Positions 5,233-32,903 of a DNA stretch of 39,486 nt are shown piece by piece; positions within the stretch are counted from its first letter, which is position 1; every line of letters starts with the position of its first letter. A program made the translations under genes and the position numbers. The stretch spans positions 1 through 39,486 of the forward strand of contig CANOTH010000008.1 in the NCBI GenBank assembly GCA_947570505.1, in the 5' to 3' direction. This stretch comes from an uncultured Candidatus Saccharibacteria bacterium. Its GTDB lineage: Bacteria > Patescibacteriota > Saccharimonadia > Saccharimonadales > Saccharimonadaceae. The notes beneath the pieces were generated by a model that ran no database searches, was not told the DNA's origin, and saw only the letters and a list, made by a program, of their open reading frames with translations.

Positions 5233-5988
5233 TTATTTTAGCGCTAAAGCTTCTTCTAACATTTGACCGGCCCTGAGAACCAATGACATGACTTTGGCAT
5301 AATTTTGGCGGGTTGGACCTAGGACTCCGATATAACTCCGATCGGAATACGGTGAACGAAAACGGCTAATAATGAGCGAGACTTGTGAGGCCTTGCCAAT
5401 GGGGTTCTCTTGGCCGATAAAGATATTTAGTGGTTGTCCCGGAGCTGCTTCGCGTAGCCAGGGCTCCAGATTATCAAGTAATTTCGCCACGGCTTGTACC
5501 CGTTGATGGTCTAGAAATTCTGGCTGTGTAAATAACCGCGCGATCCCAGAAATATACAGTTGATCGCCGATAGTCGCTAGACCAAGATTACCAGTCAACT
5601 CCACTAGTGAATCTACTGCTCCCCGAATCGCAAAATCAGCTCGGGGCTGAGAGCTAATTCGTACCTCCAGTACTCGGTTGCCTCTATCCGTACCGTGTTC
5701 TTCATCAGGAGAATGAGCAATTTGATGAATTTTGTCGCTGTCCGAAGCTTGCTCAGCCAAAGTATTAACATAGTGGCGATAACCAGCATCAGTTGGTACC
5801 CGCCCAGCAGAAGTGTGTGGCTGAGCGATATAGCCAAAATCCTCTAATCTCGCCATTTCGGAGCGAATCGTAGCCGAAGAAACATTAAACAACTTAGCTA
5901 GAGTTACACTGCCAACCGGAGTGGCCAACTCAGCATATTCTTCAATAATAGCAAAAAGGATTTCTTCCTGGCGCTTAGTTAAATTCAT
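5233..5988 (-). CDS. hrcA: HrcA heat-shock repressor
   Basis: About 251 residues, a little shorter than the usual 330-350. Winged-helix N-terminus (LTKRQEEILFAIIEEY, SSATIRSEMARLEDFGYI, PHTSAGRVPTDAGYRHYV) and C-terminal IGxENP-type region (IFIGQENP, GVLGPTRQNYAKVMSLV) are clear. I choose the ATG at 5988, not the one at 5997, because the latter lies inside the -10 box (TATAAT at 5996-6001, minus strand). The mRNA then starts essentially at the ATG. A CIRCE-like operator at 6007-6033 sits just upstream, so HrcA should repress its own operon with grpE. The middle domain appears reduced. Confidence 0.94.
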   Translation of the reverse strand: MNLTKRQEEILFAIIEEYAELATPVGSVTLAKLFNVSSATIRSEMARLEDFGYIAQPHTSAGRVPTDAGYRHYVNTLAEQASDSDKIHQIAHSPDEEHGTDRGNRVLEVRISSQPRADFAIRGAVDSLVELTGNLGLATIGDQLYISGIARLFTQPEFLDHQRVQAVAKLLDNLEPWLREAAPGQPLNIFIGQENPIGKASQVSLIISRFRSPYSDRSYIGVLGPTRQNYAKVMSLVLRAGQMLEEALALK

Positions 5989-24302: not shown

Positions 24303-25813
24303 TCACTCCGCCTTCGGAATAAACTTCTCGAGATATTCACGAAGATTTTTGTCGCAAGCATAAATATAAGTCCCACGCATACCGCGAGTACAGAGGACTT
24401 GGTATATATGCAAGATATATTGCAACAAATCCGCTTCAGCCACTCCGGCCTTACCTTTTTGGTCATAATATTCACTTGGATCAATGTAAAGTCGCTCAGC
24501 AATGGGATCATATCTCAGCTCATTACCAATAATCACTCCAGCATAATTTAAGTCAAAGCCTTGAATAGTATGAATACAGCCAATCTCGTTGATGGAATTT
24601 GGAGAGGTTAGCCAACCATCATATTTCACATTCCAAATATAGCGATGGCCATCAATCTCGATATCATACAAACCGCGATTAATATATTTAACCATCTTTG
24701 ATACATCGTCATACAAACGTAAATCGTAGGACGGAAAATCAGTGCGTCCGCTTGGGGGATTTTGGCTGAAAATCGCTTTGATGTAATCTAGATATTTTTG
24801 ACCACCTAAAATGCAACACACCTGAGTGACAAGATCAAAGATATGCAAACTATCGGTCCCGCTCAACAAGGCTTAGAATTTTTCTGCAGGAACATCCGTT
24901 GGTTTGACGGTTTGATCTTGATCATACAACAAAATGCAATGCTTGCTCCTCCGCAAAATCCAATCAAGTTCTGTACCATCTTGGCCTAGCCCCATCTTTG
25001 CATTGTTGTTGTCATGTTGACCATACTGCGTCAGGTTTTTACGTTGTCGCAGCCGATGCGCTTCGTCCACTACCAAAATGTCAAAATCTTCCTCAGCATT
25101 AGCGATCTGGCTTGGAGAAATAGACCATTTTTTCATCCAGACCGTAAGTTTGGCGAAAAGTATCTTTGACAATATTACGCAAATTTGTCATCGAAATCAC
25201 AGCGCCTAGCTTCAATGGCTCCTTCTTTTGGTGAATGCGCTGCAAATTCTCAATTAGCTCCTCGTCCTCCGAGCCAGAATCTTCATCAATATCCGATGAA
25301 AGCAATTTAAGCAAATAAATTCCTAAAACAGTTTTGCCGGTACCCGGACCGCCACGTACGACAAAGATGCTGTTTTCCTGCCCCGCAAAATCTTTTGCTA
25401 ACCAGCTAATAATCTGTCTGACTGCCAAATATTGGTCAGTAGTAAGAGATTTGTAGGGTGAATATTTGAACAGATTGGAATTCTCGATTTCTTGCCGTTT
25501 TGTAGCCTAAAATGCCCATCCGCCGACATATATGAAATCAAAAAAGCCTCAAGGTCTAAAGCAACAGACTTGTTAAAAGTATCGCTCGATAAAATTCTGA
25601 TTGAATCTAGTTTGTTTCGATGCGGATTTTCCAAATGCCGAGAAATACGTACTGGAACATTAGTAGTTTCTCCGATCTAAGCTTCGTGCTCGTTGTTAAT
25701 AATATAGACCGCTGGCCAACTATTACCAAAAGCCGTAAGCTGGATAATATTTGGCGCAGTATGATCAAAGTGTATGGGGGGCAGAAATCGAAATTTTCTT
25801 ATCTTCCATCATA
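24303..25813 (-). pseudogene. Broken GIY-YIG nuclease-DUF2075 ATPase gene
   Basis: Pieces in the right order but different frames match GIY-YIG/DUF2075 (Schlafen-like SF1 ATPase) proteins. After the ATG at 25813 the frame breaks at a C6 tract. GIY-YIG follows as WPAVYIINNEHEA-stop-IGETTNVPVRIS (TAG in place of the second motif's Tyr), then NKSVALDLEAFLISYM. The linker is partly deleted. The ATPase begins IFVVRGGPGTGKTVLGIYLL (Walker A), shifts frame after TYGLDEKMV into ANAEEDFDILVVDEAHRL (Walker B), hits TAA after VPAEKF, and resumes with LHIFDLVTQVCCILGG, NEIGCIHTIQGFDLNYAGVI and the closing RGTYIYACD. At least four lesions make it non-functional. It follows the intact MazG-like gene by five bases. 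Confidence 0.85.
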
Positions 25814-25818
25814 AATTC

Positions 25819-26133
25819 CTAGAGTTGAGTATATTTTAAACTATTACCTTTTGATTTTGCAACGGGGTATTTCTCCGCACTAATCTTAAGCTTTTCTAAA
25901 ATGATTTGCGATAAATCTACGTGGAGTTTATCCGCTAGCAATATGCAATAAGTCGCCACGTCAGCCAATTCCCCACAAACTGCCTTTTGATCAAAATTAT
26001 CGTTCCATTGAAAGCATTCTAGCAATTCACCAGCTTCAATGGCAATTGATTTAGCTAGATTCTCTGGAGAGTGAAACTGATCCCAGTCCCGCTGTGTATT
26101 AAAATCAAGAATAGCCTGCTTAGTTTGATCCAT
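25819..26133 (-). CDS. MazG-like nucleotide pyrophosphohydrolase
   Basis: 104 residues, one all-alpha NTP-PPase domain: FHSPENLAKSIAIEAGELLE (EExxE-like metal site EAGELLECFQW) and the second acidic motif ELADVATYCILLADKL (ExxD). Such proteins hydrolyse (d)NTPs to monophosphates. TATGAT ends six bases before the ATG, so it is probably leaderless. It heads a unit with the broken GIY-YIG/DUF2075 gene; that pairing recurs in accessory islands, to my knowledge, so this may be what remains of a two-gene module. Confidence 0.85.
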   Translation of the reverse strand: MDQTKQAILDFNTQRDWDQFHSPENLAKSIAIEAGELLECFQWNDNFDQKAVCGELADVATYCILLADKLHVDLSQIILEKLKISAEKYPVAKSKGNSLKYTQL

Positions 26134-26234
26134 GCCTATATCATAGCATAAAAAGGCAGTAAAAGCTACGAGCTGAGATTGGTTTTATGGTTAGACACGA
26201 AATTTACCGAATAGATTTATTTTCTATTTCTCAT

Positions 26235-28088
26235 AATTATGGTATAATCAAGCGACTGGCACTATGTCTGGTGACGATGTTATAGTCCCCTAGCAATTTG
26301 AATTATGGTATAATAACAAAGAATGAAAATGAATAGCACCTGATGTTATAGTCCCCTAGCAATTTGAATTATGGTATAATTATTAACTCGTCATATTAAG
26401 ACTGTTAGAGTTATAGTCCCCTAGCAATTTGAATTATGGTATAATTGTATTTGATTATGTGTATTTCTAATCAGGTTATAGTCCCCTAGCAATTTGAATT
26501 ATGGTATAATTCATATAAATTTTACAAGAATTAAGCTCTTGTTATAGTCCCCTAGCAATTTGAATTATGGTATAATGCACAATGTGTCTATATAATCAAG
26601 TAAGGGTTATAGTCCCCTAGCAATTTGAATTATGGTATAATATCGTTCCCTTATTGGTAAAAAACCTATTGGTTATAGTCCCCTAGCAATTTGAATTATG
26701 GTATAATTTTCCGAACGGCATTGGTGCGACGACTGGGTTATAGTCCCCTAGCAATTTGAATTATGGTATAATATACGTACCAGAGTTAACGACGGAGCTG
26801 GGTTATAGTCCCCTAGCAATTTGAATTATGGTATAATTCAGCTCTATGCGTACAAGAACAATACAAGGTTATAGTCCCCTAGCAATTTGAATTATGGTAT
26901 AATCTTTGTGATGCGGTGGCTTGGTGGCGGTCGGTTATAGTCCCCTAGCAATTTGAATTATGGTATAATATGGGAGATTTTTAATAGTGGCGGATGTACG
27001 TTATAGTCCCCTAGCAATTTGAATTATGGTATAATCGTCGAAGTCTTTTGCCATTTTAGTCCGTTGTTATAGTCCCCTAGCAATTTGAATTATGGTATAA
27101 TGAACGAAGGTAATGGTTTATTAGGTATTTTGTTATAGTCCCCTAGCAATTTGAATTATGGTATAATCCCAGATGAATGACAAAAGAGAGCCCGAAGGTT
27201 ATAGTCCCCTAGCAATTTGAATTATGGTATAATTATATCGTGCTTTCGTTATTTTTTGTGTGGTTATAGTCCCCTAGCAATTTGAATTATGGTATAATCA
27301 TCATCTGCGACGAAATGGGTCGCTGGTCGTTATAGTCCCCTAGCAATTTGAATTATGGTATAATATTCATTTCCATGCTTTGTTTAAGAACTATGTTATA
27401 GTCCCCTAGCAATTTGAATTATGGTATAATAAAACCGCCAGAGATAATGATATCCCCAGGTTATAGTCCCCTAGCAATTTGAATTATGGTATAATTTTTA
27501 TGGAAGAATTGATACAAATTACTATGTTATAGTCCCCTAGCAATTTGAATTATGGTATAATAACAGGTTGAGAAGCCAAAATGCCAGTGGGGTTATAGTC
27601 CCCTAGCAATTTGAATTATGGTATAATACCCATTTCGTCGCAGATGATGTCGTCCCCGTTATAGTCCCCTAGCAATTTGAATTATGGTATAATGAACAGG
27701 AACGTGAGGAGTCCGCCAAGAACGTTATAGTCCCCTAGCAATTTGAATTATGGTATAATATACTAAATTTAACAAAGGTTTAACTATGGTTATAGTCCCC
27801 TAGCAATTTGAATTATGGTATAATAAATCATGAGATAACCTGGAAAATTTATAGGTTATAGTCCCCTAGCAATTTGAATTATGGTATAATGGAAAATAAT
27901 TAGAGCCATCATCAGCACCAGTTATAGTCCCCTAGCAATTTGAATTATGGTATAATATTCTGATAATTTTAAAGCTGATTCTGATGGTTATAGTCCCCTA
28001 GCAATTTGAATTATGGTATAATTTTAACGGTCACAATACGACCGTCAACTCTGTTATAGTCCCCTAGCAATTTGAATTATGGTATAAT
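26235..28088 (+). CRISPR. Type II-C CRISPR array: 28 full repeats plus one truncated, 28 spacers
   Basis: The 36-base repeat starts GTTATAGTCCCCTAGC and ends TTGAATTATGGTATAAT. The first full copy is at 26279-26314 and the last at 28053-28088; all full copies I checked by eye are identical. Spacers are 29 or 30 bases. At 26235-26248 only the last 14 bases of a repeat remain, followed by a normal 30-base spacer. GTTNTAG at the repeat 5' end and complementarity to the tracrRNA fix crRNA transcription as left to right. Each repeat ends in an extended -10 box TGGTATAAT, so each can act as a promoter for the spacer that follows. Two spacers (27299-27328 and 27628-27657) share 22 bases on opposite strands. 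The last spacer contains ACGGTC/GACCGT and is self-complementary. Confidence 0.98.
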
Positions 28089-28105
28089 CTTGCACCAACA
28101 AGATT

Positions 28106-28154
28106 AACAAAATTACCCCTGTTTTAGGGGCAATTTTGTTAATTGCTTATTTTT
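28106..28154 (+). terminator. Terminator between the array and cas2
   Basis: AACAAAATT-A-CCCCT/AGGGG-C-AATTTTGTT with loop GTTTT, then AATTGCTTATTTTT. It ends array transcription before the convergent cas2 gene; the stem would also hinder read-through from cas2. Confidence 0.85.
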
Positions 28155-28479
28155 AGAAAAATGCTAGTTGTTGGCATGTATTCTTGAGTTCCTGTTCAGT
28201 TTTTTTTCCGGCTATAATATGCATGTTCGCGTACTGATGCTCTGTTACCATCAACAGTCTTATGGAGCCACCCTTTGGCGCTACCTTTTTAATTCTATCC
28301 AAATGTGTATTAGCATTATCCCGGTCGGGACATAATCGTGTGTAAACTGAGTATTGGAGCATTTCAAAACCATCATCTAATAGAAATCTACGAAAACATG
28401 TTGCCAACTTACGTTCTTTCTTATTACTAACTGGCAAGTCAAAAATCACTATTGCACGCATGTATCTATAAGGAATCAT
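28153..28479 (-). CDS. cas2: Cas2
   Basis: 108 residues with MRAIVIFDLPVSNKKERK at residues 7-24 (the conserved first-strand Asp in FDLP), a FLLDDGFEMLQYSVYTRLC ferredoxin-like core, and GSIRLLMVTEHQYANM. The first six residues may not be translated if the second Met is used. Cas2 forms the integration complex with Cas1. Start codon lies 39 bases past the cas1 stop, same strand. Convergent with the array, from which it is separated by a strong terminator. Confidence 0.95.
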   Translation of the reverse strand: MIPYRYMRAIVIFDLPVSNKKERKLATCFRRFLLDDGFEMLQYSVYTRLCPDRDNANTHLDRIKKVAPKGGSIRLLMVTEHQYANMHIIAGKKTEQELKNTCQQLAFF

Positions 28480-28518
28480 TTCTTTCCCACGTAGCCTACC
28501 TCCTTTAAGCCACTCTTG

Positions 28519-29415
28519 TTAGTTAATATGAGGCAACCTAAATAAATCAACTTCATCTTGAGAAATAGCATTAACAAAGCTTTCTACCACCATATCCGTC
28601 AAATGTTTTATGGTATATCTCTTATTTTCTATAATACCATATTCATTCAGAACATCAACTATATGCCTCCTATCATCTTTGTTAAGCATGGCATCATGTT
28701 CATCCCCTAAGTGGGCTGGTGCAACTTTTCCTAAGATATAATCATCTACTAGAGGCCGAAAGCTTTCAATTAAATCATCTACTAAATTATATTGGTTTAG
28801 TTCAGAGTGATGGTTGATACCAATTTCCGTAATTAAACCTCGAGCTGCAATTGTTTGCGCCAGAGAACTACGCACCAAGGCATAACCATAGTTTAATGCC
28901 GCATTATGCCAAAGTGGTTTGCGCCGAGTAGCATCACCCAATAAGGTATCGAAATACAGTCGAGCTGCTGTGGCTTCATTGTTACCTACGTCGCCAGACC
29001 TGACAGTTGCTGACAATTTGTCTAGACGTTTTGATAAATCTAGATAATTATTTTTGCGTAAGACTTCAGCTTGATTGGCGATTTTCTGCATAATATTTTT
29101 GCGCCAAAGCTGCTTACGCAAGGCTTCCCCTATACGTAATTGGTTGCGTGCATTCTTCGTACCGCGCGAAGCTTGACCATGCGGTAATATAATTGTGGCT
29201 GGTAAATGTTTATCATCGCAGATGATGGTATTAACACCAAATTCAGCCAGTGCCGCTAGAATACTTACTGTTGCCACTACTTGATGATTGTCAATTACTA
29301 AGCTATCGATATCTTCTAGAGGCAGAGCAACTTGCTCATCTTGAGTAATTACAAGTTTGTTATCCTTTAAGCTCAATTTAGCGGGATTCTCAATTATAAT
29401 TGTTCGCCAGGCCAT
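28519..29415 (-). CDS. cas1: Cas1 integrase (type II)
   Basis: 298 residues, normal for subtype II-C. N-terminal beta domain (WRTIIIENPAKLSLKDNKL, VIDNHQVVATV), helical domain with catalytic Glu147 (NNEATAARLYFD), His near 202-203 in GINHHSELNQYNLVDDLIE and the downstream acidic residue, followed by SFRPLVD. It integrates new spacers with Cas2. It begins ten bases after the cas9 stop, so it is co-transcribed with cas9. There is no csn2 or cas4, which fits II-C. Confidence 0.96.
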   Translation of the reverse strand: MAWRTIIIENPAKLSLKDNKLVITQDEQVALPLEDIDSLVIDNHQVVATVSILAALAEFGVNTIICDDKHLPATIILPHGQASRGTKNARNQLRIGEALRKQLWRKNIMQKIANQAEVLRKNNYLDLSKRLDKLSATVRSGDVGNNEATAARLYFDTLLGDATRRKPLWHNAALNYGYALVRSSLAQTIAARGLITEIGINHHSELNQYNLVDDLIESFRPLVDDYILGKVAPAHLGDEHDAMLNKDDRRHIVDVLNEYGIIENKRYTIKHLTDMVVESFVNAISQDEVDLFRLPHIN

Positions 29416-29425
29416 ATTTTATTTT

Positions 29426-32400
29426 CTACTCGAATTTATAGCTATCGCCAAGGACAGAGATTGGAATAAGCTCTACAACCGCAGCTGAGCCTAGAGCACA
29501 CGTGCTGGTATGATCTTTGTCTGGTTGGTTGTGGGCTAAAATTGTAATTTGTCCAGTTGCTACACCATATTTCACATAATATCCTTCTACAACTTTATCA
29601 GGATAAGTGATTTTAATATAATCATTAGGATAAACCTGAGTGGTCAGCTCAAAACCATTTAGTGGTGAAGCCATTATTAAACCGTCTGCATCGCATAATT
29701 TGTTAAACTCAGATTTCTCTTCTGCGCTGCGTCCAGTTGGTGTTGGCAAAATTGGAATTTCTTTTTTATTTAAGCTATGGGCATACAGTGGCGCAGCATA
29801 ATATTTATATTCGCCTTTAGTATTCTTGCGACGATAAACATTTAGGCAAATGGTTTTACCATTATCAGCAAATTGTTTATCATGATTTAGGTATACACCA
29901 GAGGTGTCCGGTTTCTTTTCGTAAACCTTTACGGTACGTACCGGAGAAATGGGATTACCATTCTTATCAACTTTTTTATTATTTTTATAAATTGGTTCAT
30001 CAAATGCGTTTTCGCCTTTTTCCTCTAATAATGTTTTAATTTGTTGATATAAAAATAAATCACTTTCTGGTAAAACAGAACAGTCTAGCCAATTTTTATT
30101 TTTGTCGTTTTTATATTTAAGATAGTTCTTGGCAAACTCCTTATTCAGCTTCTTTCTGGTTAGCCGTAAATCACCACCTTTCGTTTTAGGGCTTCGGTAT
30201 GTTTCTTCATGAGCCTGTCCTTTGAAGCTGTGTTTAGCCATGCGCGATATAAAAAGCGGATGAATTTTTTGGAGAAATTCTTCATCATAACTTTTGAATG
30301 CTCGGAGTTTGTCTCGAAAATCGTTCAATTTTTCTATTTTATCACTATCATGCGACATGCCGCTACGAATTCTGACTTCTTTAGTAAAATCCTCCCAAGG
30401 AGGCAACATACCTCGTAATTTCTCATACTCCACAGTGGTAATTTGTCTTGGTTCGTCATCACTATAGTCAATGGCTGTGTGGTATTTAGCACCTAGTTCT
30501 TTATACTTATTCCAGTTAGCAATTTTCTGAATCTGTCCTTGCGAAATTGTTGCAATAATGCACGCATCTACAGCATGGTGATAGTTATTATGTCCACGAT
30601 CCTTGCTACCAATACCATAGATTTTACGCAAATAATTAGTAATAAACCCGGTTGGTGCAATAACTTTTTGTTTGCCTTTGCTTTCGTTGGAAAACTTTAG
30701 ATTTTGTTTGATATATTTCGTCATGAAGCGAGTCATATAGCGAGTATCATTTAGAGCACGAATGTTCCATTCCTCTTTCGGAGGCTTTTCACACAATAAT
30801 CGGTCGCGTTTCTGATTAGGTATCTTGCAATTATTCGCTAAAGTAACAATAATATTCCATCGTTCGGGATCTGAGCCCCAAGTTTCAAACGGAGTGCGGT
30901 TTTTCTTTTCCTGATTGCATTTCGCGCATACCAAAACTTTATTATTAATATTATCGTTACCACACCTACTAAACGGTATTATATGATCAATTTCGGCAAT
31001 TCTATCGTCTGAAAAAACATCAGTACCTAAGGGTTGGCCACAATATACGCACTTACAATCTTGCTGCTCACGTAATTTATATTTAATAATTTGTTGACCG
31101 GTAGGATTTGGAATGCTTAGTTCAACTAACTTATTTTTAATTTGTTCATTATATTCAGCATTTTCCTTTTGTTGCTTTTCTATTTTTTTCCGATCACTAA
31201 AACTTTTTGCTAATTCATTGGCACATTCAAATTTAATTTGGCATGGTGCTCCATACTTTCTGATCACCGCGTTAATAACTTTATGAGTCTGAGAAATCGA
31301 TCTTTTTACAACTGGATTAGTTAATTGATCCAGTTGTTCTTTTGATAATTGCGGAAGCTCATTATAGTTACCAGAAAGCCGCTCAGTAGACTCTCCTGGA
31401 TAACATGATTCCACTGCTTGGATATACGTATTGCCATTTAGCAGGTGCGGTGTAAGCTTGCGTAAAGCCCTAATAGACAGATGTCCAAAGCCAGAAACAT
31501 TGATTTTCATCAACTCAGCAATAGCGCTAGGTGAGATATTGAGGCTCAAAAGAGCTCTTTCTAACTGTTCGTCGTCTTTGTTGATAGTTAAAGCTTCACC
31601 AATTCGATCAAATAGATCAATATCTTCTTCAATTCTTTTCCATTCTTCTGGTTTTTCTTTCAGAGCATCTTTAATTTGATGATAGAACCTAAAACTATCG
31701 ACTTTGTTGCTTTCGCTGCCTTTTTGCTTAGTTCTAGGATCGTCAAACTGAAAGCTTTGATCTTTGGTATGCCCTAGAGCTTTCCGAATGGTTGCATAGC
31801 TAGGACTTTTAACTTTTTTAAACTCTTTAACGCAGGTGTCGATTTCTTCTGGTGTTAATTTCTCACCTTGGTTATATTCTAGATGTGCGAGATTTTGAGC
31901 AATACGGAAAAGCTCAAAAGAGTATGAAGCTTTAGGTGCGCGCGGTTCGTCTTTTTCGTACCGACAATAGCCGCGCATCTTTTCCATTAATTCTCTAGTC
32001 ATGAAAGGTCGTTGATAGAAAATGCCCGACTTTTGTTTTGTGCATAAATCTTCGGGTTTTGAATATAACAATTCTTGGATCCATTCTTCACTCCAATCTT
32101 GAGTTTCTAATATCGTCAAGATTTCTTGTTCAAAGTTACTTCTAATAAAGGAGTTGCTATACTCACTGTCTTTATTACGTCTGTGAGCTTTAAATTCGTC
32201 CTCATTTAGCAATGTACATGCGACGGAATTATTATTTTTTACTAATAAAGGCTGATTAGTCTGAATTGCCGATAGTACCCTACCGCTTTCTTTGTCAGTT
32301 TCTTCCACTGCCTTGCGGTTACTTTTATAACCTCGGCGCTTAGCGATATGATATAAAGCGATAAATAATTCATAATTACTTATTTTTTCTTGGATTGCCT

Positions 32401-32716
32401 TAGCCCGTAGTAAATATGGATCTGGATGACTAAGACCTTCTTTATATGTAAAAATTCTAGTTATCTCTTCTTCGGACAGCAAGTCGTGTTTTATAAAGAA
32501 TTCTTTCAGAAAATTTAGGCGCTCGCGTCGCCGGTGCAATCGGCGCCGAGCCGAACGAGCATTTCGTCGCGGTGCGGCAAGAGATTCACCATTTTTAGGG
32601 TTTTCTGGTCGCTCAAAAATTCTTACACCTAGATCTTCAATTCGTTTCTTATCTTCATTTACTACTGCCCAACCGATACTTGACGTTCCTATATCTAATC
32701 CAAGAGAATATTTCAT
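29426..32716 (-). CDS. cas9: Cas9, type II-C RNA-guided endonuclease
   Basis: 1096 residues, in the compact II-C range. RuvC-I YSLGLDIGTSSIGWAVV with Asp8; arginine-rich bridge helix (RRNARSARRRLHRRRER, about 52-68); helical recognition lobe; RuvC-II IKFECANELAKS with Glu497; HNH with zinc ligands CVYCG and CAKC around EIDHIIPFSRCGNDNINNK, catalytic His578; RuvC-III HHAVDACIIAT with Asp717. The C-terminal PAM-interacting part contains VYRRKNTKGEYKYYAAPLY and TGQITILAHN. All catalytic residues are present, so both strands should be cut. A -10 TATAAT (32743-32748) and -35 TTGTTT (32765-32770), 16 bases apart, plus AGGA before the ATG give it its own promoter, overlapping the tracrRNA 3' end. 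Confidence 0.98.
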   Translation of the reverse strand: MKYSLGLDIGTSSIGWAVVNEDKKRIEDLGVRIFERPENPKNGESLAAPRRNARSARRRLHRRRERLNFLKEFFIKHDLLSEEEITRIFTYKEGLSHPDPYLLRAKAIQEKISNYELFIALYHIAKRRGYKSNRKAVEETDKESGRVLSAIQTNQPLLVKNNNSVACTLLNEDEFKAHRRNKDSEYSNSFIRSNFEQEILTILETQDWSEEWIQELLYSKPEDLCTKQKSGIFYQRPFMTRELMEKMRGYCRYEKDEPRAPKASYSFELFRIAQNLAHLEYNQGEKLTPEEIDTCVKEFKKVKSPSYATIRKALGHTKDQSFQFDDPRTKQKGSESNKVDSFRFYHQIKDALKEKPEEWKRIEEDIDLFDRIGEALTINKDDEQLERALLSLNISPSAIAELMKINVSGFGHLSIRALRKLTPHLLNGNTYIQAVESCYPGESTERLSGNYNELPQLSKEQLDQLTNPVVKRSISQTHKVINAVIRKYGAPCQIKFECANELAKSFSDRKKIEKQQKENAEYNEQIKNKLVELSIPNPTGQQIIKYKLREQQDCKCVYCGQPLGTDVFSDDRIAEIDHIIPFSRCGNDNINNKVLVCAKCNQEKKNRTPFETWGSDPERWNIIVTLANNCKIPNQKRDRLLCEKPPKEEWNIRALNDTRYMTRFMTKYIKQNLKFSNESKGKQKVIAPTGFITNYLRKIYGIGSKDRGHNNYHHAVDACIIATISQGQIQKIANWNKYKELGAKYHTAIDYSDDEPRQITTVEYEKLRGMLPPWEDFTKEVRIRSGMSHDSDKIEKLNDFRDKLRAFKSYDEEFLQKIHPLFISRMAKHSFKGQAHEETYRSPKTKGGDLRLTRKKLNKEFAKNYLKYKNDKNKNWLDCSVLPESDLFLYQQIKTLLEEKGENAFDEPIYKNNKKVDKNGNPISPVRTVKVYEKKPDTSGVYLNHDKQFADNGKTICLNVYRRKNTKGEYKYYAAPLYAHSLNKKEIPILPTPTGRSAEEKSEFNKLCDADGLIMASPLNGFELTTQVYPNDYIKITYPDKVVEGYYVKYGVATGQITILAHNQPDKDHTSTCALGSAAVVELIPISVLGDSYKFE

Positions 32717-32762: not shown

Positions 32763-32903
32763 AAAAACAACTATGTTATATAATCCTGAGACAGTTATAG
32801 CGCCCCGAGAGGCGCCTTTACTGTGCAGAATCCCTAATGAACAAGATTCCTTATTATAGAGACCCAGCAATTTGAATTATGGTATAAACTATAGTCTACA
32901 CCT
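32763..32903 (-). ncRNA. tracrRNA
   Basis: The minus strand from about 32903 begins with an anti-repeat at 32853-32888. On the plus strand this is a degenerate repeat copy: 21 identical bases (32867-32887), then mismatches over the TCC region and recovery at ATTATAG, giving the bulged duplex usual for crRNA:tracrRNA. After it come a GAATC/GATTC stem and a compound stem: outer CAGT/ACTG around AGGCGCC/GGCGCT (one bulged G, loop TCTCGG). A T5 tract (32763-32767) gives a weak 3' end. It lies directly upstream of cas9 on the same strand. The exact ends are estimated. Confidence 0.85.

Follow-up and report, generated by a model that had tools for sequence, protein, structure and literature searches.

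In Neisseria meningitidis, as Zhang et al. are said to have described in 2013, each CRISPR repeat contains a promoter with the box TGCTACAAT, and crRNAs arise independently of processing. In Campylobacter jejuni the type II-C crRNAs are primary transcripts that start at spacer position five, and the repeat ends in GGTAAAAT (Dugar et al. 2013, PMC3656092). A further study describes the same repeat-borne arrangement for N. meningitidis and probably also for Clostridium cellulolyticum (PMC7038990). The Saccharibacteria array studied here would share a promoter in each repeat with N. meningitidis, which belongs to a different phylum and whose NmeCas9 uses guides of 24 nt (PMC6282386). Compared to C. 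jejuni, where position five behind GGTAAAAT was mapped by dRNA-seq, our start at spacer base 7 behind a perfect TGGTATAAT is a prediction from sequence only; the C. jejuni value shows that the start distance varies between hosts. C. cellulolyticum resembles our locus in that the terminal nine nucleotides of its repeat look like an extended -10 box and in that array and cas genes are transcribed in opposite directions, whereas its crRNAs carry 23-26 nt of spacer with less uniform 5' ends (PMC7038990). Repeat-borne extended -10 promoters are already established for type II-C, as an earlier note on this DNA had assumed for Neisseria and Campylobacter and as is also published for Clostridium cellulolyticum, and the Saccharibacteria array is an extension to a new group. 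Type II-C1 systems are already on record for Saccharibacteria (PMC10746230); our literature search found no paper joining Saccharibacteria, type II-C, Cas9 and tracrRNA. New in this study are the host-specific calibration of the start distance, a direct test of whether decayed repeats retain the box, the observation that the box is broken in anti-repeats, and a weak bias at spacer base 7.

The window, i.e. the whole stretch of 39,486 nucleotides that was analysed, contains a type II-C CRISPR-Cas locus of Candidatus Saccharibacteria (cas9-cas1-cas2 and a tracrRNA) with the following features:

26213..26248, + strand: decayed upstream-most (extra) repeat with TGGTATAAT at 26240-26248, the putative promoter for spacer 1
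26249..28052, + strand: 28 spacers, spacer 1 being 26249-26278
26279..28088, + strand: 28 identical, perfect 36-nt repeats of the sequence GTTATAGTCCCCTAGCAATTTGAATTATGGTATAAT, each ending in the extended -10 box TGGTATAAT, with 27 spacers in between
within the spacers, + strand: crRNA starts predicted from leaderless genes at base 7 (or 8) of the spacer, which would give guides of 22-24 nt
28095, + strand: predicted start site of a short transcript driven by the last repeat, behind which no spacer follows
28103..28143, unstranded: terminator-like 18-bp hairpin at the array/cas2 boundary; relatives have a similar hairpin
28153..28479, - strand: cas2 (TIGR01573, 7.5e-23)
28519..29415, - strand: cas1, type II (TIGR03639, 5e-79)
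29426..32716, - strand: cas9, type II-C, 1096 aa (TIGR01865)
32763..32903, - strand: predicted tracrRNA of ~140 nt with putative ends and a T-run near 32764
32853..32888, - strand: tracrRNA anti-repeat; the opposite strand reads TGGTATAAA
32910..32937, - strand: strong predicted tracrRNA promoter TTGACT-16-TATAAT (11/12 matches)

The genes csn2 and cas4 are absent from the locus, and between array and tracrRNA there are only the three cas genes (28153-32716). Among named genomes, those of Candidatus Saccharibacteria encode the most similar Cas9 proteins (57-66% identical), and outside this group the nearest relatives are compact Cas9 proteins of Clostridia with an identity of 32%. With its 1096 aa, the TIGR01865 match and these relatives, the protein fits the compact II-C group of Cas9. 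In one relative (L057, genome G013, contig 1) Cas9 is split into three matches next to an intact array and may be frameshifted or misassembled. Upstream of the array, three ORFs (24303-25428) share a single Schlafen group 3-type DNA/RNA helicase domain, which looks like a broken gene. The hairpin at 28103-28143 likely stops transcription from both sides, that of the array (+) and that of the cas genes (-). Since the anti-repeat matches the + strand repeat, the crRNA strand is the + strand, with the TATAAT end of each repeat facing the next spacer.

The earlier note had stated that each repeat ends in the extended -10 box TGGTATAAT and that spacers measure 29-30 bases. Both were confirmed: the box forms the 3' end of 29/29 repeats, the 28 perfect ones and the decayed copy at the upstream end, and there are 20 spacers of 30 nt and 8 of 29 nt. 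In the decayed copy bases 1-22 are random-like, and the intact part is the last 14 nt, AATTATGGTATAAT. Given the local base composition, the 9-mer has a chance of ~7e-6 to occur at one given site. Because the repeats all reproduce one sequence, the real test of the box is the comparison across relatives. Within the array, the spacers at 27299-27328 and 27628-27657 have 22 bp in common, inverted relative to each other; both were therefore acquired from a single 38-bp region of one element.

How far behind such a box transcription might start was calibrated on the own genome of the bacterium, represented by 20 stretches (L033-L052) with 419 kb and considering boxes outside the array. Here 34 of 125 TGnTATAAT boxes are followed by an ATG at a gap of exactly 6 nt; other gaps gave 0-8 ATGs (8 at gap 7, 0-1 at gaps 3-5). 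TATAAT-N6-ATG opened a frame of at least 60 aa in 37/45 cases, compared to 0/24 at gaps 4 and 5. Relatives show the gap-6 peak as well (15/109). In the window, a gap-6 box precedes the ATG starts at 1551, 8250, 12011, 4677 and 37467, and a gap-7 box lies ahead of the HrcA-like gene start near 5988. This pattern is what would be expected of leaderless mRNAs if the polymerase starts 7 nt past the box, and we infer from it that the A of the ATG is the first transcribed base. The predicted start of the tracrRNA, too, is an A 7 nt past its own -10 box. Leaderless genes look common in this genome, as about one quarter of the TGnTATAAT boxes are followed by an ATG with a spacing of exactly 6 nt, and some starts set by the longest ORF are therefore probably wrong. 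Applied to the array, the calibration would place +1 at the seventh spacer base or, where this is a pyrimidine, at base 8. The best prediction for guide length is 23-24 nt, as a fixed start would give, with 22 nt where the start slips (22-24 nt by the purine rule). The 7-nt distance, which had first been drawn from a few genes, thus turned out to be a genome-wide feature that is also seen in relatives, and sequence evidence supports the further proposals of a promoter in the repeat, of a start at spacer base 7 (sometimes base 8) and of guides of 23-24 nt that need no 5' trimming.

In a comparison of 14 distinct II-C repeats from Saccharibacteria, TATAAT was present in 14/14 and TGn in 11/14. 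The n of TGn is free (G or A), and repeat bases 26-27 vary freely. Four repeats from arrays with a large Cas9 in the same genus, probably type II-A, have no TATAAT end on either strand. Some findings count against the promoter reading: TGn is not at the right place in three of the 14 repeats, and the best -35 match in the repeat is 2/6, although most leaderless promoters of this genome are also weak there. Conservation of TATAAT alone does not settle a promoter role either, since repeat bases 1-8 are invariant too. It could partly be due to the near-palindromic repeat ends (GTTATA...TATAAT) or to recognition by Cas1-Cas2. A different explanation would indeed be that TATAAT is kept for pairing with the tracrRNA or for Cas1-Cas2 recognition of these ends, and resembles a promoter by chance. 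It fits with bases 1-8 being about as invariant as bases 31-36, with the ends being near inverted copies of each other, and with the pairing of repeat and anti-repeat nearly end to end (-42.9 kcal/mol). However, the TG at bases 28-29 is not part of the palindrome, most repeats retain it with a free n, and the box stands at the same distance that the host uses for its leaderless genes.

The anti-repeats of the tracrRNAs also speak against pairing as the reason why TATAAT is kept. TATAAT was kept in 1/11 anti-repeats and hence lost from ten, with a change that often leaves a G-U pair, and they are more diverged at TATAAT than at bases 16-30 (p=0.005). Anti-repeats pair with the same bases and yet lose TATAAT; therefore pairing does not demand it. 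In our locus, the opposite strand of the anti-repeat reads TGGTATAAA, so that the -10 box of the repeat is broken there at the last T. Decayed first repeats, which retain the box and lose the rest, are a further argument. It has been noted before that the extra repeat of II-C arrays decays mainly in its first 15 nt, and the authors suggested that promoter function must stay (PMC12080349). Here the sparing of the box was tested directly in seven arrays, five from Saccharibacteria and two from the family of an Oscillospiraceae genome: outside the box 39/189 sites were changed, compared to 0/56 in TG and TATAAT (p=2e-5; 0.003 leaving out the array of this window). One of these arrays (L190, genome G634, positions 1362-1932) is decayed at either end: TATAAT persists in its upstream decayed repeats, whereas the downstream one, next to which there is no recognised spacer that it could serve, no longer has the box. 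Taken with the calibration, we consider pairing or Cas1-Cas2 recognition improbable as the sole reason for the box. Very probably, this is a type II-C array that carries an extended -10 promoter in each repeat, starts transcription in the following spacer and has no leader promoter.

In such an array, TGnTATAAT at the 3' end of a repeat would let RNA polymerase start 7 (sometimes 8) bases into the next spacer, and the primary transcript would consist of the last 22-24 nt of this spacer and the next repeat. Pairing with the tracrRNA would extend over almost the entire repeat, and the 3' end could be made by RNase III of the host. The 5' end would need no trimming, and guide length would thus be set by promoter geometry. 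Transcripts could continue as far as the hairpin (28103-28143), towards which both transcription units are directed. Spacer acquisition would probably take place at the downstream (cas2/terminator) end, with each new repeat acting as promoter for its neighbour. The transcription-upstream end appears to be the old one, because decayed repeats lie there, here and in relatives; they were seen at this end in several arrays. In other II-C systems new spacers are added at the downstream end (PMC8092290, PMC12080349). The newest spacer would then have the greatest distance to a leader promoter, a problem that a repeat-borne promoter would avoid. Alternatively, a leader promoter upstream of the array might produce one long precursor that RNase III cuts and that is then trimmed, like in type II-A. 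The genome does have an RNase III gene, and some long precursors must come from read-through of upstream repeats. However, a search of the + strand from 25700 to 26213 gave no sigma-70-like promoter, the upstream MazG-like gene points away from the array, and the decayed old end is the transcription-upstream one, with the conserved hairpin flanking the other end, as has been reported for II-C (PMC8092290, PMC12080349). We give this leader-driven precursor hardly any credence compared to promoters in the repeats.

If each spacer has to supply its own start site, and if this lies at base 7, a purine would be expected to be preferred there. In 174 pooled spacers, base 7, which had been predicted beforehand, was the most purine-rich of 29 positions (63% vs 52% overall, binomial p=0.004; 0.002 one-sided in a random-position test). 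The purine lean at base 7 was found in 11/13 arrays (Wilcoxon p=0.011). Base 8 gave no purine signal in the pooled spacers, and in the array of the window alone the bias at base 7 was not significant (16/28). The excess is a small, suggestive effect that preferences of Cas1-Cas2 could cause as well. It might be possible that promoter function selects spacer content, favouring a purine at base 7 since each spacer supplies its own start site, and that it also presses the anti-repeat to break the -10 box via G-U wobbles, because the repeat-like sequence would otherwise carry a -10 box on the opposite strand. We regard this idea as tentative and on balance rather doubtful.

The earlier note had further claimed that the first 6-7 bases of each spacer never serve targeting. 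This is too strong, because read-through precursors from upstream repeats contain whole spacers and because the II-C crRNAs of C. cellulolyticum carry 23-26 nt of spacer (PMC7038990). To compare bases 1-6 with the remaining spacer bases, the concatenated spacers were searched against a phage collection and 174 genomes of the genus, which gave no credible protospacers. Six pattern scans of viral contigs found no credible target either; two matches differ from the spacers at 11-12 positions. In the array of another relative (L170, genome G508), two spacers differ at several scattered positions and are identical in the last 12 bases, as if they came from homologous sites of related phages, and another spacer is present twice.

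In conclusion, our analysis extends repeat-borne crRNA promoters to Saccharibacteria. Leaderless genes can calibrate the start distance of a host, and crRNA ends and guide length may thereby become predictable in organisms that are hard to grow. For this Cas9, the calibration suggests guides of 23-24 nt as the first choice for tests. The purine bias at spacer base 7 and the broken -10 box in anti-repeats might serve as modest predictions that could be tested in any type II-C system.
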